A stretch of DNA of 64,000 nt. Source: Leucobacter musarum subsp. musarum (GTDB taxonomy: Bacteria; Actinomycetota; Actinomycetes; Actinomycetales; Microbacteriaceae). This document shows, piece by piece, positions 26,644 through 40,126 of this stretch (within the stretch, counting starts at the first letter, position 1; every line of letters begins with the position of its first letter). Under the pieces are notes generated by a model. The model had not been told where the DNA came from, ran no database searches, and worked only from the letters and a program-made list of their open reading frames with translations. A program made the translations under genes and the position numbers. Location of the stretch: contig NZ_JHBW01000087.1 of NCBI RefSeq assembly GCF_001273845.1, positions 434,001 to 498,000 of the forward strand, given 5' to 3'.

Positions 26644-26758
26644 CGGCAACCTCCGATGATTGCGTTCTGCGTAATCTCAGGTGCTCTTCTGTGTTGATCA
26701 CTCCACGCGCCGACTCGCGAACAGCTCTCGATTCGGCGCGCCGAAAGGATGCAATCCC

Positions 26759-29700
26759 TTGTCCCGAAGAATCCTGAAGCCGGCGCTCGCTGCAGCGCTG
26801 GTTGCAGTCGTCACGCTGAGCGGCGTCTCGACCGCACAGGCGGTGACCGGGCGCGTGAACTTCGCGCACGGCGCCCAAGTCACCGCCAGCTCGACCCACC
26901 CATGGAACAACGGCGCGCTCGCGGGCGCGAACCTCGTCGACGGCTCCGTGCAGACCCGTTGGGCCGCAGCCGACGATGCCACGTTCCCCATCACCATCGA
27001 TCTCGATCTCGGCGAAACGAAGACCTTCGACGAGGTCTACCTCGACGAATACACGGATTCGGGCACCGACCCACGCGTCGATCACTTCCAGCTCCAGCAG
27101 TGGGACACCGACTCGAGCAGCTGGAGCACCTTCGGCTCGTACAGCGGCGGTATCGGGCACAGCAAGACGATCGTACTCGATGAGCACGTCAGCACCGAGA
27201 AAGTGCGTCTGTCCATCACCGATATGCTCCCCGGCGAGATCTACACGCCAACGCTGAGCGAGATCCAGCTCTACTCCAGCGATGACCCTGGCTCAGGAAC
27301 GGGCGGCGAACCCGCCAACGATCCGTTCTACGCCGGATTCGACAGCACGCCGACCGCACAGCCCGACTCGATCGGTGCGAACGCGCAGGCTCTCCTCATC
27401 GATACGCCCTCCGAAAACGGCAACAACACGCTGCGTGCTGTCACCTCCGACGCCGGCATCGTGTTGCAGCAGGTCACCGAAGAGACCGGTCAGGTCACGC
27501 AGAGCCTGGACCTGTCGCAGTACCTGGACACCGTAACCTCCGCTTCCGCCGCCGTCGACTGGGATCAGGCCGCACCGCGCCCGCTCAACGTCTATGTCAT
27601 TGGCGAACGCGATGGTGAGCGTCAGCTCCTCACCGTCACCACTCCCGGTGCGGGCACACTCGGTACGGCGTCGACCTCGACGTTTACCGTGACCGACGCC
27701 GCGAAGTTCAAGTCACTCACGGGGGTGGCGCTCGCCGACTTGCAGCTGCTGAACCCGTTCAGCACCGGCATGCTCGCGGTGTACCGCGACGGCGACGCCT
27801 ACGCCGGAAAGCGCCTCACGTACGCGCTGTCCCCTCAGGCAGGTCGCGAGCCCTTTGCCCTGCCGTTCGACGGCGCCGCGCGATCCTTCGCTTCAGATTC
27901 CTACGGCAACGTCTTCTCGAGCAAGCCCGGCCAGGTCGACTCCGTGTCACTGTACAACCTGACATCGCCGGCCACCGCGAAGGTCGACGGACTCGCCACG
28001 GTGCAGCAGTGGCTGCTCGACAACAATGGCTTCATCGCCGTCAGCGATGATCAGGGTCACGTCGCGCTCGTGAACGCGAACACGTCTTCGGGCGTGCAGT
28101 CCACGCGCTCGGTGCTCGACATCGGTGACGATGCCGCGTCCCTGGCCTACGTCAGCTACCTGAACGAGCTGCAGGTCACGACGGCTCGCGGCAATGCGAT
28201 TCTGCGCTACTCGACCGACACTGGTGCCGCCCGCACCTCGCTCGACGTCGCCGGCACTGTGATTGCCGGATCGCTCCGCTCGCACATCGGCTGGCGCCCC
28301 GCCACGACGATGCTCGTCACACTCGATTCGGGCGCATACTCGTACCGCACGGAGTACATCACCGCTCCGAAGCCTTACTCCACGCTGACGCTGAATGCAG
28401 CCACCCGGGGTGCCGGCATCGATTTCGCCTACGGGGCCGCCGGAACCGACATCGCCCTGAACCGCGTCTGGTTCGAGTACAGCCTCGACGACGGCGCGTC
28501 GTGGGCGAAGCGCGGCGAATCGTGGAACTCCGCGATCTCCGACATCGGCTCGGTCACGACGCTCCCCGGCGCACAGCCCGGGCCGCTGAATGATGAGGCG
28601 CCGTACCTGCGTCAGGAAACCGGCGAAGATGTGTGGGCGACCTCGACCACCAGCTCGTTCTCGTCGCAGTTGCAGGTACCGACCGAGCAGCTCGATGCGC
28701 TCTGGCGCTACCGGGTCGAAAGCGCCTACGGCTCGCGCGCCAGCAACACCACGCGCATCGTCTTCGCTGACGAGCAAGAGGTCGATACGAGCCTGCGCGT
28801 CACCGCTCAGCCGGAGTCCGCTCGCGTCAGCGTGGGCGAGCAGACGTCACTGAAGTCTGAAGCGACCGCGGCCGACACCCCTGCCGTGCAGTGGCAGCGC
28901 TCCACCGACGGCCAGACGTGGGCCGATATCGACCAGGCGACTGCGAGCACCTACACGTTCACCGCTGCGGCGAGTGATTCGGGTGCGCAGTTCCGCGCCG
29001 TATTCAGCTCGGGCGGTTCCGAGGTCGTGAGCGACCCCGCAACCGTGAGCGTGATGGCGCCGGCCGGGATCTCGCTCGGCGCAGCACCTGCGGGCGCGGT
29101 GACCGCGAGCGAGGCACAGTTCACGCTCGACCTCTCGAAGTACGCGCACGACTGGATGCGCGACACCGCGTCGCCGAACGTCACGCTCGGCGCCACCGGC
29201 TTCGACTTCGCGAACGGCACCGGATGGAGCAACGCCACGACTGGCGAGGCCCAGTTGACCTGGCAGGGCACCGCCATCTATCGCCCCTACGGCGGATACC
29301 TGGGGCTCTACATGGCGATCGCCGATCCGTACCTCGCGGTGGGAGCCGACGGTCGCGCCACGCTGACTGCCGAGGTCGCCTGGAACGATGGCGGCGGCCA
29401 CTGGAGCGGGCCCGTCGACAGCAGCTACCGTCGGGTCATCGTCGCGACCTTCTCGGCGAGTGAACTCGCCGCGGCGAATGATGGGTCACTCACCTTCTCG
29501 GGTACCCCCGAGTGGGAAGGCCGCAGCTACACGCAGGGCGCCGGGCTCACCTACCCGAACAGCTTCCCGCTGTCGTTCGTGAGCTACTTCGATGTGTCGA
29601 ACCAGCCCTGGTTCTATGCAAGCGGCAGCGACCGCGACCCCGAGAAGGCCCCGCTGGCGGTCACCGCGACCGCGGCAGTGTCGACCGATGCGCCTGCGAC

Positions 29701-31096
29701 CGACGGCACGCGCATCGATCATGCCGACCCGCTCGGCGATGGGAAGAACCCGTTCACCCCGGCATCGCCGACTGTCGTCGAACAGCCGAGCTCGGTCACG
29801 ATCGCCGTCGACGGCACGGCGACACTCACGGCGAGTGCCGCAGGCTCCCCCGCACCGACCGTGCAGTGGCAGCAGCTCGTCGACGAGGCCTGGAACGATA
29901 TCGCCGGCGCCACTGAGCCGACATTCGTCACCCCGAAGCTTGCTGAGGGCACGTACTCGTATCGCGCAGTGTTCACGGGTGGAGGCGAATCGGTCACAAC
30001 CGATACCGCCGTCGTCACCGTGACGTCTGAGCCAATCGATACCGATCCCGACGGCGGCCCCGCGCTGGTCGTCACGCCGGGCGCCGATCTCGCGAACGAG
30101 ACCGCGGTCTCGGTGTCGGGATCCGGCTACGAGAAGCACACCAACACCTCGGGCGCGTATCTGCTGTTCGGATACTCGACCAAGGCGCCCTCGCAGGGCG
30201 GCAAGCTCGGCACCGATTACGATTACATTCCGGAAATGGCGAACCAGCGCTTCATCGCGTGGCCGGACTCGGCGACGGCAGGGTCGGCGCAAGCCGTCTT
30301 CGCCGACGGCGGCTTCACGGCCGACGGCCTCACCGTGCAGTCGAAGTTCATCGGCGCCTCGGGCGCAGTGGTCGATTGCCTGGCAAGCGGGATCACCTGC
30401 GGTGTCTTCACCATCGGCGCACACGGTGGCCGCGACTCGGCACTCGAAGCGTTCACTCCGGTGACCTTCGCCGGTGCGGGCACGGACCCCGGAACCGACC
30501 CCGGCACGGATCCGGGAACCGACCCCGGGACCGACCCGGGAACTGACCCGGGAACCGATCCGGGAACCGACCCCGGAACCGACACGGGCACCGACCCGGG
30601 AACTGACCCCGGAACCGATCCCGGTACCGACCCGGGCGTTGATCCCGATCCGATCTCGGTCACGCCGTCGGAAGACGACTTGACTGCTGAGCTCGAGGGG
30701 CGCATTGTGGCCCCGCCGACGGCAATCGCAGGCTCAACGATCGAGGTCGCTATCCGCGACGAGTACGCGCGGCAGAACGTCGCCGCGTACCTGTTCTCGT
30801 CGCCGACGGATCTCGGAACGCACACGGTGAGCGCGAACAACACGTTCTCCGTGACGCTGCCCGAAAACGTGACCGGTCAGCATCGCCTCGCCGCGTATGA
30901 TGCGTCCGGCGCCATCATCGGATGGGTGCCGATCGCGATCGCCTCAGCCGACGAGCTCGCTGCTACGTCGCAGCTCCCGGTCACCGGAGCGTCTTCCGCG
31001 CTGCCGGTGGGCGTGATCGGCGGTGCTGCACTGCTCATCGTGCTCGGTGCAGGCCTCGTGCTCGCACGCCGAGTACGCGTGCGTTCGCGCGCGTAG
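26759..31096 (+). CDS. LPXTG surface protein: discoidin, Ig-like and HtaA-like domains
   Basis: 1445 aa, secreted and sortase-anchored. A signal peptide (residues 1-28, ending STAQA) leads to an F5/8C discoidin domain (about 30-178), a beta-rich propeller-like region (about 190-650) and an Ig-like domain (about 678-767). An HtaA-like domain (about 775-965) with W-x-G-T-A-x-Y-R-P-Y-G-G-Y-L-G-L and LTAEVAWN blocks follows; such domains bind haem in corynebacterial HtaA/ChtA. Then come a second Ig-like domain (about 1001-1090), another beta domain (about 1100-1237), a DPGT repeat (1243-1298), LPVTG at 1406-1410, a membrane helix and an Arg-rich tail. Start is TTG at 26759 with AAAGGA nine bases upstream. 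The upstream iron box supports a haem or iron role. No sortase gene is in the window. Confidence 0.85.
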   Translation: MSRRILKPALAAALVAVVTLSGVSTAQAVTGRVNFAHGAQVTASSTHPWNNGALAGANLVDGSVQTRWAAADDATFPITIDLDLGETKTFDEVYLDEYTDSGTDPRVDHFQLQQWDTDSSSWSTFGSYSGGIGHSKTIVLDEHVSTEKVRLSITDMLPGEIYTPTLSEIQLYSSDDPGSGTGGEPANDPFYAGFDSTPTAQPDSIGANAQALLIDTPSENGNNTLRAVTSDAGIVLQQVTEETGQVTQSLDLSQYLDTVTSASAAVDWDQAAPRPLNVYVIGERDGERQLLTVTTPGAGTLGTASTSTFTVTDAAKFKSLTGVALADLQLLNPFSTGMLAVYRDGDAYAGKRLTYALSPQAGREPFALPFDGAARSFASDSYGNVFSSKPGQVDSVSLYNLTSPATAKVDGLATVQQWLLDNNGFIAVSDDQGHVALVNANTSSGVQSTRSVLDIGDDAASLAYVSYLNELQVTTARGNAILRYSTDTGAARTSLDVAGTVIAGSLRSHIGWRPATTMLVTLDSGAYSYRTEYITAPKPYSTLTLNAATRGAGIDFAYGAAGTDIALNRVWFEYSLDDGASWAKRGESWNSAISDIGSVTTLPGAQPGPLNDEAPYLRQETGEDVWATSTTSSFSSQLQVPTEQLDALWRYRVESAYGSRASNTTRIVFADEQEVDTSLRVTAQPESARVSVGEQTSLKSEATAADTPAVQWQRSTDGQTWADIDQATASTYTFTAAASDSGAQFRAVFSSGGSEVVSDPATVSVMAPAGISLGAAPAGAVTASEAQFTLDLSKYAHDWMRDTASPNVTLGATGFDFANGTGWSNATTGEAQLTWQGTAIYRPYGGYLGLYMAIADPYLAVGADGRATLTAEVAWNDGGGHWSGPVDSSYRRVIVATFSASELAAANDGSLTFSGTPEWEGRSYTQGAGLTYPNSFPLSFVSYFDVSNQPWFYASGSDRDPEKAPLAVTATAAVSTDAPATDGTRIDHADPLGDGKNPFTPASPTVVEQPSSVTIAVDGTATLTASAAGSPAPTVQWQQLVDEAWNDIAGATEPTFVTPKLAEGTYSYRAVFTGGGESVTTDTAVVTVTSEPIDTDPDGGPALVVTPGADLANETAVSVSGSGYEKHTNTSGAYLLFGYSTKAPSQGGKLGTDYDYIPEMANQRFIAWPDSATAGSAQAVFADGGFTADGLTVQSKFIGASGAVVDCLASGITCGVFTIGAHGGRDSALEAFTPVTFAGAGTDPGTDPGTDPGTDPGTDPGTDPGTDPGTDPGTDTGTDPGTDPGTDPGTDPGVDPDPISVTPSEDDLTAELEGRIVAPPTAIAGSTIEVAIRDEYARQNVAAYLFSSPTDLGTHTVSANNTFSVTLPENVTGQHRLAAYDASGAIIGWVPIAIASADELAATSQLPVTGASSALPVGVIGGAALLIVLGAGLVLARRVRVRSRA
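30485..30652 (+). repeat. 12-bp tandem repeat coding for DPGT
   Basis: Fourteen consecutive 12-bp units (consensus GACCCCGGAACC) inside the surface-protein gene, encoding eight DPGT, one DTGT, three DPGT, one DPGV and a final DPDP. Units vary mainly at third codon positions. In the protein it is an acidic spacer before the wall-anchoring part, and as a minisatellite it may vary in length between strains. Confidence 0.9.
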
Positions 31097-31106
31097 AGGC
31101 GGAATC

Positions 31107-31140
31107 AGCGGGGGTCGCGCGGCAACGCACGGCCCCCGCT
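31107..31140 (+). terminator. Terminator hairpin after the surface-protein gene
   Basis: AGCGGGGG (31107-31114) pairs with CCCCCGCT (31133-31140) eleven bases after the stop, followed by a short T-rich stretch (GTCGTTTCTG). Confidence 0.6.
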
Positions 31141-31169
31141 GTCGTTTCTGCGGGGTGCTTTTCTGCTGG

Positions 31170-31745
31170 CTACAGGCTAAGCATGGCCACGGTGACCACC
31201 GTAACCAGCAGCACAACGGCGATCCCGGCGCCGCAGCCGATGCCGATCAGCGCCCCGTAGCCCATCCGCGACGTTCGAGCTCCCGATGCGCGTGCGGCGG
31301 CGATGAACTCCGGCCCTCCCTGGGTCACCCACGACCCGGCGGCCGACACTTGCGTCAAGCCTCGACTGAGGTCGACGCCCGCCGCGAATCGATCGTGGTC
31401 GAGCACGGTCGCGACCGTGCCTGCGATGCCGTAGCGCAGCACCCGGTTGACCACGGTCGGGTCGGCGAGCAGCGGATAGCTCTGCCCCCGCACGACCAGG
31501 GTGATGCGCTGTGCCGCGGACTTCACCGTTACTTCGGTCGCCGCCACGCTGAACACTTGAGCCCACCCCGTGGCAGTGATGACCCACAGCGTGATCCACC
31601 CGTTGCTGATCTCTGCGCGCGCCGGATAGTAGGCACCGGTCGAGTTATCTCCGTAGGCACCGGTGAACACGGCATACGGATACTGAAACTGCTGCGGCTG
31701 CGGATACTGCGGCTGCGGAACCTGCGACGAATACAGCTGCGTCAT
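31170..31745 (-). CDS. Uncharacterised protein with C-terminal membrane helix
   Basis: 191 aa. The N-terminus is rich in Pro, Gln and Tyr (PQPQYPQPQQFQYPYA). The middle is beta-rich (WITLWVITATGWAQVFSV, QRITLVVRGQSYPLL). A glycine-rich hydrophobic helix at about 165-188 ends the protein. This looks like a cytoplasmic domain anchored at the C-terminus. No named family is recognised. ATG at 31745 lies 6 nt after TAGACT (31752-31757), so leaderless. It converges on the surface-protein gene across a terminator. Confidence 0.68.
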   Translation of the reverse strand: MTQLYSSQVPQPQYPQPQQFQYPYAVFTGAYGDNSTGAYYPARAEISNGWITLWVITATGWAQVFSVAATEVTVKSAAQRITLVVRGQSYPLLADPTVVNRVLRYGIAGTVATVLDHDRFAAGVDLSRGLTQVSAAGSWVTQGGPEFIAAARASGARTSRMGYGALIGIGCGAGIAVVLLVTVVTVAMLSL

Positions 31746-31770
31746 CGTGCCAGTCTATGCCTGACGTGTC

Positions 31771-32244
31771 TCAGCACGCCGTGTCACCCGGCTCGTCAAG
31801 CGCGTTGAGCAGCGTCGTCAGATCAGGTGCCACCACCGTGGAGACTTCGAACTCGGGCTCTGTCCCGTGCACGATCACACCATCCGCGCGCTCAGCCAGA
31901 TACGCGTAATCGCCGCGGACGCTGAGCAGAATTGGGGTGCACTCCCGCCAGTACGCGGTGACCTCAGCCGCTGCCGCGGCCGTGTTCGCCGCCTCCAGGC
32001 TCAGCATCTCACAGGCATTCCACGCGAATCCGTCGGCGTCCTCGACCGCGTAGTCGTCTCGGCTCAGAAACCAGACCGCATCGTCGGAGCTCGACAACTC
32101 GCTGAAGGAGTTGACCCACGTCATTAGCGCAGGAGACGCATTCTCGAGGGCATTGGGCACCCCAGATTCCGCCGGCACCGAGGGGCGATAACGCCAACCC
32201 GCTCCCCCGAGGTTCGCAATCGCACGGGTCGCCTCATCTGCCAT
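31771..32244 (-). CDS. Uncharacterised cytoplasmic protein
   Basis: 157 aa, acidic, no membrane helix. The end (WRECTPILLSVRGDYAYLAERADGVIVHGTEPEFE) resembles small SMI1/KNR4-like (SUKH) proteins in style, but I would not assign it. ATG at 32244 begins 4 nt after the stop of the mutM 3' remnant. Its -10 hexamer TATCCT (32251-32256) is made of the last codons of that remnant, so its present promoter depends on the remnant. A longer in-frame GTG at 32304 would run back through the remnant and is rejected. Confidence 0.65.
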   Translation of the reverse strand: MADEATRAIANLGGAGWRYRPSVPAESGVPNALENASPALMTWVNSFSELSSSDDAVWFLSRDDYAVEDADGFAWNACEMLSLEAANTAAAAAEVTAYWRECTPILLSVRGDYAYLAERADGVIVHGTEPEFEVSTVVAPDLTTLLNALDEPGDTAC

Positions 32245-32248
32245 GACT

Positions 32249-32395
32249 TCAGGATACGGTGCGCCGCCTCTGGCACTTCGGGCAGAAGTGAGACCCACGC
32301 CCACCTAAGGTGATGCGTGTGATGGGGGTGCCGCACCGCGGGCAAAGCTGTGCGGCACGACCGCAGGTATTTAGCGAGTAAGCAAAGCAACCAAC
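32249..32395 (-). pseudogene. 3'-terminal remnant of a mutM (Fpg) gene
   Basis: On the minus strand this encodes, after an in-frame stop, a run from VGCFAYSLN through the complete Fpg-type zinc finger (CPRCGTPITRIT and GSHFCPKCQRRRT) to a stop at 32249. It aligns without gaps to the C-terminus of the complete mutM at 35230. I count about 34 of 46 residues identical, and about 94 of 107 bases identical over 32258-32364. The N-terminal five-sixths of the gene are missing. It has lost the usual Tyr and His of the FAHSLNAYGR block (to Tyr and Cys), which suggests decay. Together with the true mutM it brackets a 2.9-kb low-G+C segment. Confidence 0.85.
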
Positions 32396-32530
32396 TTATC
32401 TTCGTCTATTGCGTTCGTTTCGGATTAGACCAGTCCACGGACTTTCTACGCGCGATAGGAAATCACCCGTTAGTTCAAGGAGTCGCGACCATAAGAGTTG
32501 ATGAGCGGTCGCTCTGCTGAGATCGGATAA

Positions 32531-33829
32531 CTACGCCGGCGTCTCTCTGGCTACAGCTCGGTTTACAACGTCAAACACGTCGCGCACTGCACCTGGCAGT
32601 GCTCCGTGCTGAGCGGGATTCTCGGCTGCCTGCTTCACCGACTTGGATGCGTTGTCGTTCATCGAGGTGGTAGCGAGGGCCTCCACATCGGTGATCAACT
32701 CGCGGACGCTTTGGTAGCGACGATCTGGCTGGGAGTCGATGCACTTGTGCACAATGTCCTCCAGCGGTGTCCTCACACTTCGTCCGATGTTCTTGCGCCC
32801 GGTGAAGATGTACAGAAGCACGAACCCAGCGGCGAAGATGTCATGGACTGCACTGAAATCCTTGAAGGAACCGAGCGCGGGATCAATCTTCGTGCCCTTC
32901 AGCTCTGTTTCGGTCATCGTAAAGTCCGATCCCCTGCGCTTCGCGAGACCGAAGTCGGAGAGCTTGACGAGGACGGCTGAACCGCCGAACGTCTTCAGTA
33001 AGACATTTCGCGTACTTAGGTCACGATGGAAGTGCCCTCTGGTGTGGATGAAGTTCAAACCGTAGAGAAATTGGAGTGCGATGCGCTTGCGGCTGGTCAA
33101 CCCGAATGCAGGCTGGTTGTTGCGCTTGGCGACATAGTCTTCGAGCGAGGTATCGCAGTGTTCCATTGTGTAGGACCAGTCCGACTCCTGGAAGCGGTGG
33201 ACCTCAAGAACGTATGGGAACTGGAGTTCCTTCATTAGCTCAAATTCTCGACGAAAGCGCTCCTTTTCTCTGTGGTCAGCTCCAGGTTTGAGCTTTTTCC
33301 GAGCAAGGGTCAGCCCGTAGTTTGGATCAGTGAATCGGTGGACCACTGCAAAGGCACCTTCTCCGACGGGTGTCAACTTCACTGAACGAGAGTCGGACAG
33401 CGTTACCGCCTGATCGCCGAGGCCGAATACTGGAGCGTAACTCTCCACGTGTACCGGCGTGAAGCCCTCAGGGATGGGGCTGCCCCCGCTATCCACCAGC
33501 CATGCCGGAGCGTTCTCGATGACCCGGCGGTACTCGGGTGACATCGTGAGTTCGTGGCCTGCCTTACTGAGCACGGTGCGCGCCTCCGTCAGCAAGTCGA
33601 TGAGGTCCAGAAGTTTCCGGGAATTGTCGGCATTGAAGTGCCCGCTGGTGCCACCACGAGCCTTGTAGTTCATCCACTTGAATTCGGCATCGAGACCTTC
33701 ATGAATGTAGGCAAATGCTCTGGGCAGAACCGACTCGCGTCGGTATAAGTCGAGATAAGTCGAGTCGAACTGCTTCTCGTAGAACGTTCGCTCGAAGCGT
33801 TCGACCCTCTCCTGCTCCAAAGTCTTCAT
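32531..33829 (-). CDS. Ser/Thr protein kinase with unknown N-terminal domain
   Basis: 432 aa, cytoplasmic. Residues 1-~145 are a helical, charged domain I do not recognise. A complete eukaryotic-like kinase domain follows: glycine loop GEGAFAVV (156-163), the Lys of LARKKLK (about 176), catalytic HRDLSTRN (268-275) and DFGLAK (292-297). A C-terminal tail of about 60 residues has no membrane helix or PASTA repeat, unlike the cell-wall kinases PknA/PknB, so it is probably a soluble signalling or defence kinase. ATG at 33829 lies 6 nt after TAGCAT (33836-33841). Codon use is visibly less GC-rich than in neighbours, consistent with transfer. Confidence 0.85.
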   Translation of the reverse strand: MKTLEQERVERFERTFYEKQFDSTYLDLYRRESVLPRAFAYIHEGLDAEFKWMNYKARGGTSGHFNADNSRKLLDLIDLLTEARTVLSKAGHELTMSPEYRRVIENAPAWLVDSGGSPIPEGFTPVHVESYAPVFGLGDQAVTLSDSRSVKLTPVGEGAFAVVHRFTDPNYGLTLARKKLKPGADHREKERFRREFELMKELQFPYVLEVHRFQESDWSYTMEHCDTSLEDYVAKRNNQPAFGLTSRKRIALQFLYGLNFIHTRGHFHRDLSTRNVLLKTFGGSAVLVKLSDFGLAKRRGSDFTMTETELKGTKIDPALGSFKDFSAVHDIFAAGFVLLYIFTGRKNIGRSVRTPLEDIVHKCIDSQPDRRYQSVRELITDVEALATTSMNDNASKSVKQAAENPAQHGALPGAVRDVFDVVNRAVARETPA

Positions 33830-33835
33830 ATGTCG

Positions 33836-33841
33836 ATGCTA
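33836..33841 (-). promoter_or_regulatory. -10 hexamer of the kinase gene
   Basis: TAGCAT on the minus strand, exactly 6 nt before the ATG at 33829. The layout matches the leaderless pattern seen in the host genes despite the lower G+C of the island. Confidence 0.45.
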
Positions 33842-34064
33842 TCGATGAGAAATGCAACTTCTACTTGCAGCGAAGGAGTGGCCAACTAACGTTGCTCGTT
33901 TTCTCATTCGCTCTCTGATTCGCCATCCGCAGGACGCGCGCGCAGAATCTACGCTTGCGGTAAATGAAACGCAAACGTACCCGCAATACTGGTCTCATGT
34001 CCTGCATCCCACTCCATTCCGCAACCCTCATCAGTGCAAACCTGCTGGAGCAGGGACGTCAGAG

Positions 34065-34646
34065 TTGAACGTCCAAGATCATCCGCACGGAGCAGGCGCG
34101 TCTTCGTCGATCACTTCAGCAGTGGCTGTTGTCCCTAACGGATGGATCTACGAGCGAAACGATGACAACTCCGCGCGCTTTCTGTTGGGCACGGAGGGTT
34201 CAAATCCACTGATCTGCTTCGGAGTTAACCCCAGCACTGCGGTGCCCGACGAACTTGATCAGACACTCAGGCGGGTGCGAGGCTACTCTCAGCGCAATGG
34301 GTTTGGCAGCTGGATGATGTTCAACTTGTATCCGCAGAGGTCAACCGACCCCGAAGGCCTCCACGACGCCTACATTGCAGAGCTAAAGACAACGAACGAG
34401 CGACGGATTGCAGAGTTCATTAATGGCCGTGCATTGACACTGCTTGCAGCCTGGGGCGAACCGATCACAACACGCCCCTACTTGAGGGACATGTTGGCGG
34501 ACATCGTAGGCATCACCGACGCTTCGGCTTGCAGTTGGCAATCAATCGGTGCCCTCACGACCAAACTGCACCCGCGACATCCATCGCGCGGTGCGTACCT
34601 TCCGCTGCGGGACTTCGACATTGCGTCCTATCTAAAACGGCTCTGA
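34065..34646 (+). CDS. DUF1643 domain protein
   Basis: 193 aa from the start chosen. The signature LICFGVNPSTAVPDELDQTLRRV (about residues 49-71), SWMMFNLYPQRSTDPEGLH (about 83-101) and LLAAWGEP (about 126-133) match DUF1643, a family of unknown function often carried by phages, plasmids and islands. TTG at 34065 has AGGGA eight bases upstream; the frame is open back to an ATG at 33852, which would add 71 poorly conserved residues. It is divergent from the kinase gene inside the mutM-bounded island, so the two may form one module. Confidence 0.72.
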   Translation: MNVQDHPHGAGASSSITSAVAVVPNGWIYERNDDNSARFLLGTEGSNPLICFGVNPSTAVPDELDQTLRRVRGYSQRNGFGSWMMFNLYPQRSTDPEGLHDAYIAELKTTNERRIAEFINGRALTLLAAWGEPITTRPYLRDMLADIVGITDASACSWQSIGALTTKLHPRHPSRGAYLPLRDFDIASYLKRL

Positions 34647-35229
34647 GTCGAAGTGGGACTCTGGGAGTACGCGTGGTCTCTACTGGAACGACAAACGATG
34701 ACTTTGTCACAGCGGAAGTCGCCCGTCATCAACTGCGCTCAGCGAAGTGGGCCGCGTTTAGGCCGTATAACTCCATACGATGGCTGACGGCGAATGCGCC
34801 AGAGGACGAAGCAGAGAATGGCTCCTTGCGGATTGGCTAACTTATGCCGCGCAGGTATTGTTCGAACGCTGGAGTCCACCTACGCGGTACACTCGTCGGC
34901 AGTGCAGCGATCCGGTTCCAAGTGCAGGCGTACCTCGACATCCGTCCCGGAACAAGTCGATTCCGAGGTAAACGCCCGTGGTCATCTCCTCTCAAAGATG
35001 TTTCTTCAGAGGAGTGTGCCCTCTTGCCGTGATGTGTACGGTTTGGGAGAGCGTGGTCAGTAGATTGCGCTACGCAGAGCGCGGTTCGATACATTGACTC
35101 AAACACCAGAGAACGGCGCATTCAATTCGGAGCCTCCGAAAGACCCTGCGGCAGGTCAGAATGTCGCTCATACATGAATCACAGGCCCCCTGTGCTTCCG
35201 CTCCTGCCCCAAATGTGCTCTGCTATCCG
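34647..35229. other. 583-bp stretch without a recognisable gene
   Basis: Right part of the island between the DUF1643 gene and mutM. Only short frames occur on both strands (the longest about 90-100 codons, for example minus 34837-35121). None has a family resemblance, good codon bias or a ribosome site. I see no tRNA, integrase remnant or clear terminator. Confidence 0.5.
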
Positions 35230-36180
35230 TCAGGTGCGCCGCTTCTGGCACCTCGGGCAGAAGTGCGACCCACGTCCACCGAAGGTGATGCGCTTGATGG
35301 GGGTGCCGCACCGCGGGCAGGGCTGCCCGGTGCGACCGTATGCGTTGAGTGAGTGCGCGAAATACCCTGCCTGCCCGTTCACGTTGACGTACTGCGCATC
35401 AAAGCTCGTGCCGCCCTCGACGAGAGCCTGTGCGAACACCGCACGCAACAGTGCGAGCAACTCCACTGCCTTGCGCGGGCCGACCGCGCTGCCGGGTGTC
35501 TCTGGGTGCAGGCGTGCTCGCCAGAGCGCCTCATCGGCGTAGATGTTACCCACACCGCTGATCAGCGTCTGATCGAGCAGCAGCTTCTTGACCCCGGAAG
35601 TACGCGAGCGCAGCGCGGCGATGAAACGGGCATCGTCGAAGGCCTGGTCAAGCGGGTCGCGCGCGATGTGCGCGGCCTGCGTCGGAATCACGCCGGGCCC
35701 GTCGTTCGCCGGGTGCAGCGCATCGAGCGCCAGCGATCCGAACAGCCGCTGGTCGGCGAAGTCGACCCGCAGCTCACCGTGGTCTGGGTGCGCGATCCAC
35801 AGCCGAATGCGCACGTGCCGGTCGTCGACCGCGTCGTGCGCGCGCAGCAACACCTGGCCGCTCATGCCGAGGTGCGCGAGCAGCGCTAGCGGCTCCCCCG
35901 CGGCTGACCGACCGCTCGTCGGCACCCACAGGAACTTGCCTCGACGCTCGGGTGCCGCCAGCGTGAGTCCGGTCACGCGCCGCTCGAAATCGGCAGAGCG
36001 TGCCGCGCCAGCCGCAGCCGTCAGTGTCACTCCGTGGCCGCCGAGACCATCGTCGCCCGCAGTCGGCAGATGGCGCTTCAACGCGCGCGGATCCATGACC
36101 TGAGCCGAAACGACGCGGGCGCCGGTCACGGCGGGCGCCAACCCGGCGCGCACCACCTCGACTTCGGGGAGTTCAGGCAC
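35230..36180 (-). CDS. mutM: Formamidopyrimidine-DNA glycosylase (Fpg/MutM)
   Basis: Bifunctional glycosylase/AP lyase that removes 8-oxoguanine and formamidopyrimidines, 316 aa. The catalytic N-terminal Pro and Glu are in MPELPEVEVVRAGL. The beta-hairpin lysine motif RRGKFLW lies at about 79-85, the H2TH region (LLDQTLISGVGNIYADEALW) at about 200-220, and the zinc finger CPRCGTPIKRITFGGRGSHFCPRCQ at the end. ATG at 36180 overlaps the end of rnc by 8 bp. A 74%-identical copy of its last 46 residues lies 3 kb away at 32249. Confidence 0.97.
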   Translation of the reverse strand: MPELPEVEVVRAGLAPAVTGARVVSAQVMDPRALKRHLPTAGDDGLGGHGVTLTAAAGAARSADFERRVTGLTLAAPERRGKFLWVPTSGRSAAGEPLALLAHLGMSGQVLLRAHDAVDDRHVRIRLWIAHPDHGELRVDFADQRLFGSLALDALHPANDGPGVIPTQAAHIARDPLDQAFDDARFIAALRSRTSGVKKLLLDQTLISGVGNIYADEALWRARLHPETPGSAVGPRKAVELLALLRAVFAQALVEGGTSFDAQYVNVNGQAGYFAHSLNAYGRTGQPCPRCGTPIKRITFGGRGSHFCPRCQKRRT

Positions 36181-36913
36181 GCCGGCGCTTCGCGGGCGTG
36201 CGCAGTCGATTCACGGCGTCGCGAGCCGCGGCAAGTTCGGCGGCTTTCTTGCTGGTCCCTGCCCCCTCGCCGACGATGCCATCGAGAACCACCCTCGACG
36301 TGTACCGTCGGTCGTGGTCGGGGCCGGTGCCGCGCGTTTCGAACGGCGGGTGCGGCAGCCCGCGGCGCGAGGCCTCCTGCTGCAGTGAGGTTTTCGGGTC
36401 GAGCGCCTCGAGCGACTCGAGGAACCGATCGGTGTCTTCGAGCAGTGGCTCGATCAGATCGAGCACGAAGCGGGTTGCGGTCGCCGGGTCGGTGGAGAGG
36501 TAGACCGCTCCGATTACCGCCTCAACTGCATCGGCGAGCAGCGAATCCTTGTCGCGCCCACCGGTGAGTTCTTCACCTTTGCCGAGACGCAGCAGTTCTC
36601 CGATGCCGTGCTGTCGAGCGACTTCGGCAAGCGCGACAGTCGACACCAGTGCGGCGCGGCGCTTCGCGAGCTCGCCCTCACTGAAATCGGGGAAGGTCTC
36701 GTAGAGCTTCACGGTGACGGCCTGCCCCAGCACCGAGTCGCCGAGAAACTCGAGTCGCTCGTTGTGCGGCGCACTGCCGTGCTCGTACGCCCATGAGCGA
36801 TGCGTCAGAGCCAGTTGAATCAGTTCGGGATCGGCCCGAACGCCGAATGCAAGGAGAAAGCCGCCGGGGTCCCCTTCCGGGGAGCCCGACGGCTCTACAA
36901 CGCTCTGGGTCAA
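36173..36913 (-). CDS. rnc: Ribonuclease III
   Basis: Double-strand-specific endoribonuclease for rRNA and mRNA processing, 246 aa from the chosen start. The catalytic signature NERLEFLGDSVLG lies at about 56-68 and the second acidic site LLADAVEAVIGAVYL at about 122-136. A C-terminal dsRNA-binding domain ends in GEGAGTSKKAAELAAARDA. TTG at 36913 is the only in-frame start between the rpmF stop and the conserved LALTHRSW; there is no good ribosome site, so initiation may be coupled to rpmF. A strong hairpin (36860-36893) lies in its first codons. Confidence 0.93.
   Translation of the reverse strand: MTQSVVEPSGSPEGDPGGFLLAFGVRADPELIQLALTHRSWAYEHGSAPHNERLEFLGDSVLGQAVTVKLYETFPDFSEGELAKRRAALVSTVALAEVARQHGIGELLRLGKGEELTGGRDKDSLLADAVEAVIGAVYLSTDPATATRFVLDLIEPLLEDTDRFLESLEALDPKTSLQQEASRRGLPHPPFETRGTGPDHDRRYTSRVVLDGIVGEGAGTSKKAAELAAARDAVNRLRTPAKRRRA
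36860..36893 (-). terminator. Strong hairpin after rpmF, inside the 5' end of rnc
   Basis: On the minus strand the left arm (GCCG, CGGG, TCCCC) pairs with the right arm (GGGGA, CCCG, CGGC) around a GGAA tetraloop, with one mismatch and one G-T pair. It is followed by TTTCTCCTT. This fits an intrinsic terminator of rpmF with readthrough, or an RNase III cleavage site for self-control as described for the rpmF-rnc (absB) transcripts of Streptomyces. Confidence 0.6.
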
Positions 36914-36914
36914 C

Positions 36915-37118
36915 TCAGGCGTCAGCGACCTTGCGGCCCTTGTACTCGAGGAAGAGGGCGTTGCCCTGCGAATCCTCGACCACGCGGGCGCGGTGCGGGA
37001 GGCTGTACACGGTGCGGCCGTTTTCAACGGTCTTCACCAGAGTGGGGGCCTCGGCCTTCCACGCCGAACGGCGGTGGCGGGTGTTCGATCGCGACGTCTT
37101 CCGCTTGGGAACAGCCAT
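36915..37118 (-). CDS. rpmF: 50S ribosomal protein L32
   Basis: Large-subunit ribosomal protein, 67 aa. The start [21 protein letters not shown] is unmistakable. It lacks the paired cysteines of zinc-binding L32 forms (it is the C-minus type). ATG at 37118 has a GGAAAGAG site. It lies 13 bp after the DUF177 gene, the usual pairing. Confidence 0.97.
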
Positions 37119-37131
37119 GATGCTCTCTTTC

Positions 37132-37716
37132 CTACTTGCTTTCGGACTCGGGAGTCTCACCCGAGCCGTGGTCTTCTTCAGCCTCGACTGCGTTGGTCTT
37201 CGCGCCTTCCGGAGCAAAACCCGCCAGCGCCGCCCACCGCGGATCTACATCCGTGGTGTTTGCCACCGCAGCCTCGGTGTCGCGCAGCTCACCGGACTCG
37301 GGATCGAGTCCCGGACAGTCCGGACGACACACAGGCTGGAACGGCAGTGCAAGCACTACCGCGTCTCGGAGCGGGGGTTCAAGATCCACGTGATCACCGT
37401 GAACCCCATACTCTTCGGCCTCCGTAGGAGTATACGCGAAAAGTTCCTGGAACTCGACTTGAAACGGCGTGGTGAAATCTTTCAGGCATCGACCGCACTC
37501 GGCGTGCATGGTCGTCGCGATCTCGGTCGAAGCCAGAATGCCCTCGTGCACCGATTCGAGACGCACATCGAGATCGAGTTCGACACCCGCAGGAATCTCA
37601 GCGAGCCCCTCGCCGAACTTCTCGGGAACCGTCAGCGTGCGCGAACGTTCGCGCATCTCCCCCGGACGGTTGATGATGTCGCGGATATTCTCCTCGTAGA
37701 CACGGCTCTTACTCAC
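37132..37716 (-). CDS. DUF177 / YceD family protein
   Basis: 194 aa. YceD-type proteins are linked to 23S rRNA and ribosome assembly, and the gene is almost always next to rpmF, as here. Paired cysteines CGRC (about 74-77) and CRPDC (about 129-133) form the probable metal site, and the acidic C-terminus is typical. GTG at 37716 lies 6 nt after TAGACT (37723-37728), so leaderless; the transcript probably carries DUF177-rpmF and possibly rnc. Confidence 0.92.
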
Positions 37717-37746
37717 CGAAGCAGTCTACCGCGTGCGCGCCCGGGC

Positions 37747-38238
37747 CTATGCCGGGTGACGCTTCTCGAGGAAGCGGGCGACGGCGTCGGGAACGTACGG
37801 GCTGACATCGCCACCCATCTCGGAGACCTGTCGCACCAGCGTGCTCGAGACGTGGGCATGCGCCGGGTCCGGCAGCATGAACACGGTCTCGACGTCAGCG
37901 AGACTGCGATTCATGATGGCCATGGGGGTTTCGTACGACACATCGATCTGCGACCGGATGCCTTTCACGAGCACCGAGGCATCGACCTCGGTGCAGTAGT
38001 CGACGAGCAGCCCAACCGACCATGATGCGACGGTGATGTTGGCAGGTGCGCCGGCGTCGGCGAGCGACTTCTGAATGAGCGACATGCGCTCGGTGATCGG
38101 CAGCATCGCCGTCTTATTCGGATTGTGCACCACCAGCACGTGCAGCTCATCGAAGATGCGCGCTGCGCGCAGAATGACATCGAGGTGCCCCATCGTGACC
38201 GGGTCGAAGGAGCCGGGAACCACAGCGATTTTCGTCAT
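37747..38238 (-). CDS. coaD: Phosphopantetheine adenylyltransferase
   Basis: Converts 4'-phosphopantetheine and ATP to dephospho-CoA, 163 aa. The nucleotidyltransferase motif [15 protein letters not shown] (about 8-22), [12 protein letters not shown] (about 92-103) and the C-terminal [22 protein letters not shown] are diagnostic. ATG at 38238 lies 6 nt after TAGGCT (38245-38250). It is followed by DUF177-rpmF-rnc-mutM. The usual upstream partner rsmD is 11.5 kb away in this genome. Confidence 0.97.
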
Positions 38239-38306
38239 GGCTTCAGCCTAGGGGGTGACCCATGCCCCTGAGCCTGAGGTCCGCTGTGATCTGCGATCCG
38301 GTGCGA

Positions 38307-39275
38307 TCAGTTCTCGGCCCGCCCGCGCCGCCAGTACCCCATGAACGCGACCGATTGACGGTCGATGCCGCGCTCTGCAACGAGATGCCGACGAATGAGT
38401 TTGATGGCACCGGCCTCACCCGCCAGCCACGCGTATCCCTCCGAAGATCGCGTGTCGCTCGCGGCCGGGGTTCCGGTCAGCGCGTCGACGCCGGGAACTT
38501 CCCAGAGGATGTCACGGTCCACGTCGATCTCCTGCAGCTCGTCCTGCGCCGCCGCCGCCGATCGCTCGACATCAACGAGCCCGCCCGGGAACACGGATTC
38601 GAGTCCGCGCACCGCCTCCACCAGAGCCGCACCCGGCGCAGCGGGATCGCGCTGCAGCACGGTGAGCTCGACTCGCCCCGACGCGAGCAGCGCATCTGCG
38701 TCGAGGAGTGCGGCGTCCGCGCGATCCGCCACTTCAAGAATGACGTGTGCGCAGGCCGTGGCTTCAAGCGATGCCAGAATCCCGGCGATCGCAGGAAGCG
38801 CCGTGTCGTCTCCGACGATCAAGAATCGTTCGGCGCGCTGCGGAGGGATCCACCCGACCGCGGTGTTCGGGCCGGCGAACTGCGCATCCGGGCCCAAAAT
38901 CGTCAGCGCGGCCCCCGGAATGGCTTGCTCTGCCCACGCCGAGGCCGGGCCGGGGTGGGTGTCGTGCCGCGCGAAATCGACCGTGACCCGCACCTCGCCG
39001 CCCGTGCGACTCACATCGCGCGGTGTGTACGTGCGCATCGGCGGCCGCTCATCATCGGCCATCGCCGCCCACGACTGGTACCAGCCGTCGCCGTTCTCCA
39101 GCGCGGGAATCTGGCCGTGCTCGTTGGGAAGCAGCAGCTTGATGCGCTGGTCGAGCCCCGCGAAACCGAATCGTTCGAGCTCGGGGCCGGCGAACACGAC
39201 ACGCACGAATCCCGGGGCCGGTCGGCTCACCTCGGTCGCGGTGACCTCGAACAAGCGGTAGGCGGTGGTGCTCAT
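38307..39275 (-). CDS. Siderophore-interacting protein (ferric-siderophore reductase)
   Basis: Flavin-dependent reductase of the SIP family that releases iron from imported ferric siderophores, 322 aa. The FAD-binding motif MRTYTPRDV (about 80-88), the NAD(P)H-binding segment FLIVGDDTALPAIAGIL (about 149-165) and the terminal GYWRRGRAE match the family. Its ATG overlaps the stop of the upstream ATPase gene (ATGA), so it is the last gene of a five-gene uptake operon and acts in the cytoplasm after import. Confidence 0.92.
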   Translation of the reverse strand: MSTTAYRLFEVTATEVSRPAPGFVRVVFAGPELERFGFAGLDQRIKLLLPNEHGQIPALENGDGWYQSWAAMADDERPPMRTYTPRDVSRTGGEVRVTVDFARHDTHPGPASAWAEQAIPGAALTILGPDAQFAGPNTAVGWIPPQRAERFLIVGDDTALPAIAGILASLEATACAHVILEVADRADAALLDADALLASGRVELTVLQRDPAAPGAALVEAVRGLESVFPGGLVDVERSAAAAQDELQEIDVDRDILWEVPGVDALTGTPAASDTRSSEGYAWLAGEAGAIKLIRRHLVAERGIDRQSVAFMGYWRRGRAEN

Positions 39276-40126
39276 GCGGTTCCTTCCGGGGCATCGGTGG
39301 GGGCTGTAGGTGCGCGCTGCGGCTCGGGATCGATGGGGTGCGGTGCTCCGACAGGGACGACCATCGGCGTGCCGGCAATGGGGTCGGGCACGATGACCGA
39401 AGCGAGTCCGAACACCTCGGCGATGAGCTGCTCGGTCACGATTTCACCGGGCGCGCCCTCTGCCACGATCTCACCGTGTCGCATGGCGATGAGGTGATCC
39501 GCGTAACGTGTCGCGAGGTTGAGCTCGTGCATCACCACCACGATCTGCGTGCCTCGAGTGCGTTGCAGCGTGACCAGCAGTTCAAGTAGTTCGACCTGGT
39601 GGGCGAGGTCGAGGTAGGTGGTCGGTTCGTCGAGCAGCAGGATGTCTGGCTCCTGCGCCAGGGCCATGGCGACCCACGCGCGCTGCCGCTGACCGCCCGA
39701 GAGCGCGTCAACGGATCGCTCGGCGAAGGCATCCATGTGGGTGAGGGCAAGCGCTTCGGCCACGACCTCATCATCATGCTGGTTGCGACGACCGAGCCAT
39801 TCGCGGTGCGGCGTACGCCCGCGATCGACCAATTCGGACACTGTGATGCCGTCGGGGGCGATCGGTGCCTGGGGCAGCAGGCCGATGATGCGTGCGACCT
39901 GCTTCGTGTGCAGGCGTTGGATCGGCTCGCCATTGAGCAGCACCGCACCGCTGCGGGCCTTCAGCAATCGTGCGAGCGTGCGCAGCAGCGTCGATTTTCC
40001 GCAGCCGTTCGCCCCCACGATCATCGTGATCCCCGATTCAGGAAGCACAAGGTCGAGGCCTGTGATCACCGGGTCGCCGTCGTAGCCGACGGTGAGGTCT
40101 TTCGCGGCGAGCAAGTGGGAGGTCAT
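39272..40126 (-). CDS. Iron-siderophore ABC transporter ATPase (FecE/FhuC type)
   Basis: Cytoplasmic ATPase of the siderophore importer, 284 aa. Walker A GANGCGKST (about 40-48), signature DALSGGQRQRAWVAMALAQ (about 140-158) and Walker B ILLLDEPTTYLD (about 161-172) are complete. The pattern PQAPIAPDGITVSELV is typical of FecE/FhuC ATPases. ATG at 40126 overlaps the stop of the permease. The C-terminal ~30 residues are Pro-rich and outside the fold. The frame is open much further upstream, but that part overlaps the permease. Confidence 0.94.
   Translation of the reverse strand: MTSHLLAAKDLTVGYDGDPVITGLDLVLPESGITMIVGANGCGKSTLLRTLARLLKARSGAVLLNGEPIQRLHTKQVARIIGLLPQAPIAPDGITVSELVDRGRTPHREWLGRRNQHDDEVVAEALALTHMDAFAERSVDALSGGQRQRAWVAMALAQEPDILLLDEPTTYLDLAHQVELLELLVTLQRTRGTQIVVVMHELNLATRYADHLIAMRHGEIVAEGAPGEIVTEQLIAEVFGLASVIVPDPIAGTPMVVPVGAPHPIDPEPQRAPTAPTDAPEGTA

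Follow-up and report, generated by a model that had tools for sequence, protein, structure and literature searches.

The stretch of DNA analysed here, referred to throughout as the window, comprises 64,000 nucleotides of Leucobacter musarum subsp. musarum (contig NZ_JHBW01000087.1, positions 434,001 to 498,000 of the forward strand), and our subject is the 3' end of its mutM gene, which encodes the 8-oxoguanine repair enzyme MutM (Fpg). Downstream of mutM lies an insert, bounded on its far side by a second copy of the gene's 3' end, which has the same orientation and begins near the codons for the motif AGYF (hereafter the AGYF codon); the insert very probably occupies an integration site. Read along the minus strand, the order is mutM, island, mutM remnant and chromosomal neighbour, the remnant stopping 4 nucleotides (nt) before the neighbouring gene. 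The features are as follows.

35230..36180, minus strand: mutM (Fpg), complete, the probable target of insertion; matches PF01149, PF06831 and PF06827, and NF002211 above its cut-off.
35230..35370, minus strand: present mutM 3' end, from the AGYF codon to the stop (ending QKRRT); contains the repeat copy 35233-35354.
32249..32395, minus strand: displaced second mutM 3' end (beginning VGCFAYSLN, ending QRRRTVS before the stop); contains the other repeat copy; its TVS end is shared with P0242, a MutM from another sample.
32345..32395, minus strand: diverged first 17 codons of the remnant; 20/51 nt unlike mutM; G+C at third codon positions 0.41.
32396..32419, minus strand: possible, weakly recognisable counterpart of the element-side (left) arm of a serine-recombinase attachment site; score 64.
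32396..35229, no strand: the island itself, some 2.8 kb with G+C 0.56; genes for an integrase, a relaxase or mobilisation were not recognised.
32531..33829, minus strand: Ser/Thr protein kinase, cargo; matched over its kinase part by the antiphage kinase models Mad6, Stk2 and PD-T4-6.
33852..34646, plus strand: DUF1643 protein (PF07799, family match), cargo.
34647..35229, no strand: stretch from the DUF1643 gene to the mutM stop; no gene recognised.
31771..32244, minus strand: chromosomal neighbour, whose homologue directly follows mutM in the empty site of another Leucobacter genome (G032).

The two mutM ends form an ungapped repeat in the same orientation, 32258-32379 against 35233-35354, identical at 103 of 122 bases, with an alignment score of 149; the next best match anywhere in the window, on either strand, scores 30. 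Over 32258-32364, the span in which the initial annotation had compared the DNA, the identity is 93/107 bases (87%). That annotation had also read in the remnant a frame-intact Fpg zinc finger with a stop, as is borne out by 32249-32395, where 48 open codons followed by a stop encode both CxxC pairs of the finger. The lower G+C that it reported between the mutM ends also stands, at 0.56 in 32396-35229 and 0.67 on either side (28000-32248 and 35371-39500), as does the lack of an integrase: the serine recombinase family PF07508 has 0 matches in the window's own genome, and the nearest matches to the tyrosine recombinase family PF00589 on the same contig lie about 107 kb or more away. Proteins of two recombinase-bearing relatives (G134 and G007, described below) used as queries at E 0.01 revealed no recombinase or mobilisation relics in the island. 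Neither relaxase nor NikA-like genes were found there, no large serine recombinase adjoins the displaced end (the relatives' recombinase does not match the window), and no tRNA was found in the 64 kb.

The named homologues nearest to the window's mutM come from Leucobacter, and extra mutM ends recur across this genus. A protein search with the window MutM of 54 Leucobacter genomes, including the window's own, recovered 12 extra C-terminal fragments, 60-80% identical, in 11 of them (G000, G001 with two, G003, G004, G007, G012, G014, G021, G025, G027 and G037), and 10 of the 12 begin at residues 267-279. Wherever fragment and mutM share a contig (9/9 genomes) the fragment lies downstream of mutM on the same strand, at a distance of 1.4-13.2 kb; in G025 and G027 the two are on separate contigs. 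Short repeats of the mutM end also lie downstream of the gene in G005 and G047, and no such fragment was reported in the other 41 genomes, a set that includes fragmentary assemblies and one genome (G038) that gave no mutM match. Outside the genus, 79 named loci yielded one clear second end, in locus L143 at mutM stop +1644 (1.6 kb downstream), and one weak second match, in L138 (Corynebacterium lowii); another weak second match was noted in L070 (G024). In the window remnant and eight other Leucobacter remnants, similarity to mutM stops upstream of about the AGYF codon, and in the G027 remnant it extends further back; the sequences were aligned on that codon, and the boundary is therefore one defined by loss of similarity. 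In G001 (L071) two successive displaced ends stand behind one mutM, the first at stop +10997 and the second at about +13255, the pattern expected if two elements had accreted in tandem. Two further loci, L068 (G033) and L072 (G026), have mutM ends of non-host type and no displaced end in the stretch searched, where it may be hidden by a larger island or a contig end.

In relatives, a recombinase accompanies the displaced end. Both G004 and G007 have a gene for a large serine recombinase, with Resolvase and Recombinase domains, whose start lies about 40 bp within the displaced mutM end and which is read towards the insert; the two proteins are 84% identical. The single homologue of the G007 recombinase above 45% identity reported among 398 genomes of the family (G134, from another genus; 81%) also lies beside a mutM end, as does the single homologue reported at E 1e-100 among 394 genomes of the class (G576, from another family; 68%), and twelve homologues at 45% identity or less have no mutM end in flanks of about 1.5 kb. 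The inserts of G134 and G007 have in common a helix-turn-helix (HTH) gene, a NikA-like gene and a MobA-type relaxase, a gene content that makes both mobilisable elements; the shorter insert of G004 carries the recombinase and the HTH gene only, relaxase and NikA-like genes not having been found in it. Serine recombinases act on dyad-type sites, and the half-sites of G007 form an imperfect dyad, matching at 14/25 positions when centred between two G's, the best of the 16 centres tried. A 2-bp core is described for Tn4451 (PMC5704250). A viral origin of the recombinase was considered and rejected, since eight loci on viral contigs encode relatives at 34-40% identity, and none of them has a mutM match in the stretches examined. 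The G134 and G007 elements also share a 251-amino-acid protein (L192:13554-14309; 55% identical) that has no Pfam match at E 0.01.

The end that mutM now carries differs in these genomes from the end it appears to have lost. All four recombinase-bearing genomes (G004, G007, G134 and G576) have a present mutM end of one type, GYFSR[YE]LHSYGR, which we term element-type, and displaced copies that read GYFAHSLNAYGR, GYFAHSLNVYGQ or GYFARNLNVYGH. Amino acid identities of the tail, the MutM body and the displaced end, respectively, are 89%, 53% and 59% for G004-G134; 80%, 55% and 59% for G007-G134; 77%, 48% and 68% for G134-G576; and 70%, 47% and 61% for G004-G576. Over all pairs, tails are closer than displaced ends in 4/6 and closer than bodies in 6/6, the latter being partly expected for a conserved finger. 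Elsewhere in the genus, G012 combines a non-host mutM end with a displaced copy of host type, and G001 has a non-host mutM end and, in the first of its two remnants, a displaced AHSQNSYG copy with 0.91 identity to the present mutM end of G037.

Two genomes show the site in other states, and supply the comparisons that the initial annotation had proposed. In G032 (L061), the homologue of the 31771-32244 gene (62% amino acid identity) begins about 100 bp after the mutM stop, an empty site; in G003 (L046), mutM is followed by 6.8 kb of other genes, a second mutM end and then that homologue, a site refilled with different cargo. Each comparison consists of one genome, and both rest on few genomes because the neighbouring gene, present in 11/54, lies near mutM in only four: the window's own, G032, G003 and G018.

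Taken together, the evidence makes it very probable that elements integrate at the 3' end of mutM in Leucobacter and in certain other Actinomycetes, the window island being an occupant of this site that has no integrase. A mobilisable element with a large serine recombinase would recombine with mutM about 45 codons before the stop and bring its own in-frame copy of those codons, which encode the zinc finger, such that mutM would gain a substitute end and stay whole while the native end would be pushed to the far side of the insert. In the window, the kinase and DUF1643 genes would thus have come to lie with an intact mutM on one side and, on the other, the displaced end directly before the original neighbour; the island's own recombinase may have been lost or never carried, and its entry, or a later remodelling, may have been aided by homologous exchange between mutM ends. 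What the sequences show is the repeat, an empty site, a site with different cargo and, in relatives, a recombinase gene adjoining the displaced end; from these we infer the recombination event itself. The suggestion in the initial annotation that mutM serves as a 3'-end target with a substitute end is thereby upheld, given recurrent ends in 11/54 genomes and a recombinase with an element-borne end in relatives.

Several observations, however, weigh against this reading. Of the four recombinase cases only two are independent, as G004 and G007 were found by their position beside the mutM end and supplied the query; the fragment of G576 is not on the contig that carries mutM; and about 30 further protein clusters at 54-95% identity to the recombinase, some of them named from Gordonia, Nocardia, Streptomyces, Kocuria and Cutibacterium, may not all keep to mutM. 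The shared-tail signal fails for G007-G576 (tail 61%, body 45%, displaced ends 66%) and is missing from G007-G004 (82%, 71% and 82%). The empty site is a single genome whose gap is about 100 bp, compared with 4 nt in the window, and in G018 about 2.3 kb separates the 31771-32244 homologue from mutM, and no second end was detected. Within the window, the present mutM end is of host type (AHSLNAYGRTG) rather than element-type SRYLHSYG or SRELHSYG, and in the first 17 codons it is the remnant, not mutM, that is the unusual copy. The left arm in the window appears weakly similar to known arms: the match of the 24 island bases preceding the remnant to the element-side arms scores 64, which is also attained at 37/5572 island positions, 399/127952 window positions and in 0.6% of shuffles. 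Finally, P0242, a single protein 97% identical to the window MutM, agrees with mutM at 10 of 13 informative positions and with the remnant at 3 (40, 47 and 48); eight of the 10 fall in the first 17 codons, where the residues are common to most native tails, and the others are positions 30 and 43.

The two ends of the window island are mosaic. The two copies differ at 20/51 nt in the first part and 7/78 in the last (Fisher 5e-5), a skew matched in 0/946 pairs of host-type tails, and over the last 78 nt they are each other's closest relatives (0.91; next 0.78). P0242 ends CPKCQKRRTVS, the remnant CPKCQRRRTVS and the present window mutM CPRCQKRRT; because VS and the stop are common to P0242 and the remnant, which adjoins the old neighbour, the last codons of the remnant are probably native and those of the present mutM probably not. 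Among nine Leucobacter pairs tested, the window and G003 (10/51 vs 2/79 differences, p 0.0015) are skewed and the other seven are not (p 0.18 to 1); the L143 pair, from a Nocardiaceae metagenome-assembled genome, is skewed likewise (11/51 vs 0/79, p 2e-5), having been met during the search for second ends and not in a planned skew test. The mutM of G021 is of host type in its first part, but its last codons and the DNA after the stop are shared with G037 (80.9% over 94 bp). We read these mosaic ends as the product of site-specific insertion combined with homologous exchange between mutM ends. As the window island combines the lack of a recombinase with mosaic ends, such exchange probably shaped it, either as the island's entry route or, as may equally be, in a later remodelling of its ends; the caveat in the initial annotation, that the event might be in trans, deleted or by homologous recombination, was apt for the same two reasons.

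The strongest alternative, itself a same-site variant of the preferred explanation, takes homologous recombination as the means of entry: a circle or fragment with one mutM end would have crossed over inside the zinc-finger codons, no recombinase being needed in the host. It predicts a mutM with native first codons and island-borne last codons, and a remnant with the reverse. The skewed window repeat, without equal among host-type pairs, is in keeping with this, as are the native-looking first part of P0242 MutM together with its remnant-like TVS end, the similar skews of G003 and L143, and the composite mutM of G021. Yet most Leucobacter pairs are unskewed and L143 was an unplanned case, a plain crossover alone gives no uneven repeat, and gene conversion after site-specific insertion explains the mosaic equally well; the circle or transfer, moreover, is invisible in sequence. 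We therefore regard homologous entry as a real possibility, placed somewhat below an even chance.

Distinctly improbable, by comparison, is a tyrosine-recombinase element that crossed over within the last codons (GGRxSHFCPxCQ) and has since lost its integrase, the longer repeat being incidental. The case for it comes from G047 (L042), where a perfect 38/38 bp repeat at mutM stop +1918 to +1956, about 1.9 kb downstream, matches the bases 54 to 16 nt before the stop, that is, at these very codons, and suggests a second class of element at mutM, perhaps tyrosine-type. The window remnant, however, reaches back to the AGYF codon as does the recombinase-linked class, no PF00589 gene lies within about 107 kb of the window island, and in G047 the nearest one, about 12 kb away from mutM, falls beyond the 1.9-kb insert. 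Least credible of all is that the remnant derives, as a tail, from an old mutM paralogue or from a local tandem duplication, without any mobile element: both copies are of host type and mutually nearest over the last 78 nt, but fragments starting from about the same codons accompany differing cargo in 11/54 genomes, G032 offers an empty site, recombinases lie beside fragments, and a lost full-length paralogue, which the initial annotation had entertained, was rejected, the other Fpg/Nei matches in these genomes being 29-43% identical.

In the cargo of the window island, the kinase, in which HRD and DFG motifs are visible by eye, matches the antiphage models listed above at E values down to 5e-33, Stk2 matching at E 6e-33 over residues 151-401; 33 PADLOC models match it, many of them kinases. 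At E 1e-25 the kinase has no match in the other genomes of the genus sample (1/54, its own), whereas a homologue at 84% identity occurs in G329, from another genus, and relatives at 77-86% in Agrococcus, Brevibacterium, Microbacterium and Nesterenkonia; presence in other genera and absence from the rest of the Leucobacter sample are as expected of mobile cargo. The DUF1643 family is found in 14/54 Leucobacter genomes. A fixed pairing of kinase and DUF1643 was considered but is not supported: the surroundings of the G329 kinase (84-85%), covered for 7.6 kb in one direction and 8.2 kb in the opposite one, contain no match to the window DUF1643 protein. Selected open frames, not all, were scanned in twelve insert loci. 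This identified antiphage-type genes in four loci besides the window's: type I restriction-modification genes in G134, a type ISP enzyme in G007, GmrSD and SIR2_2 in G037, and Mrr/AAA and AIPR in G001. A Fic gene was found in G014. Genes that are not antiphage by name, encoding a major facilitator superfamily transporter, a dehydrogenase and an aldo-keto reductase, were found in G003, and polyketide-cyclase-type genes in G012 and G021; in G004, G005 and G047, where single frames were scanned, nothing was recognised. Antiphage-type genes were thus present, in the scanned frames, at 5/10 one-contig AGYF-type loci (nine in Leucobacter, plus G134), a count that has no matched control sites and that includes the window kinase by model similarity.

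On this basis we advance a broader proposal, on which our confidence is evenly divided: that mobilisable elements with a serine recombinase, forming one family and present in two or more families of Actinomycetes, target mutM and rewrite on arrival the DNA-binding end of the 8-oxoguanine repair enzyme by means of an interchangeable 45-codon zinc finger, with cargo that is often antiphage, and that integrase-less islands persist and turn over through homologous exchange between mutM ends.

Known systems resemble this arrangement in part. The passages of PMC5704250 drawn on here describe integrative and mobilisable elements (IMEs) at the 3' ends of housekeeping genes, where one end of the insert restores the gene and relaxase-type mobilisation genes are carried; insertion at a 3' end, a gene kept whole and relaxase-type genes are common to both. 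The same passages tie 3'-end targets to tyrosine recombinases, and have site-specific serine-recombinase IMEs disrupting dispensable genes; here, in contrast, the recombinase associated with the 3' end is a serine enzyme, and about 45 codons come from the element. They do not include mutM among IME targets. They also define cis-mobilisable elements (CIMEs) as lacking integration and transfer genes while retaining attL and attR. The window island likewise has flanking mutM ends and no recognised recombinase or transfer gene, and the successive remnants of G001 fit tandem accretion as it is treated there; the island's two ends are, however, mosaic and the mutM-side end is of host type, so that site-specific mobility is not evident. 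As in the portions consulted of a catalogue of large serine recombinases with single-gene targets (PMC10083194), the recombinase has Resolvase and Recombinase domains and one target gene in four close homologues, whereas the catalogue describes target genes as disrupted; the word "glycosylase" has 0 occurrences in its main text. The SpyCI islands of Streptococcus pyogenes, as described in abstracts, are also chromosomal islands in a DNA-repair gene, mutL, but enter at the 5' end and block transcription, whereas mutM receives a new 3' end and keeps an open reading frame. No report of mutM (fpg) as an integration target was found in the literature search, which left bioRxiv and most subscription papers outside its scope; in the part of PMC13310844 drawn on, mutM serves as a typing locus. 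As far as that search shows, the combination of a serine recombinase with a 3'-end target looks new, because the passages of PMC5704250 link serine elements to disrupted dispensable genes and 3' ends to tyrosine recombinases.

Taken alone, the window island is an ordinary integrase-less occupant, and it is the site that gives it interest. The mutM 3' end offers a predictable place in which to search for antiphage genes in Leucobacter and its relatives, and the recombinase subfamily is tied to one conserved target in the cases checked. The findings suggest that the zinc finger of a DNA-repair enzyme has repeatedly been replaced by mobile-element versions, which raises the questions of whether chimeric MutM proteins retain their repair capacity and whether mutation rates are altered. 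The mosaic ends in three lineages, furthermore, provide a handle on how recombinase-less islands change or move. Apart from these matters, the window also encodes, at 26681-31096, a 1471-amino-acid surface-type protein with a GTDPGTDP repeat and, judged by eye, an LPVTG-like C-terminal anchor.

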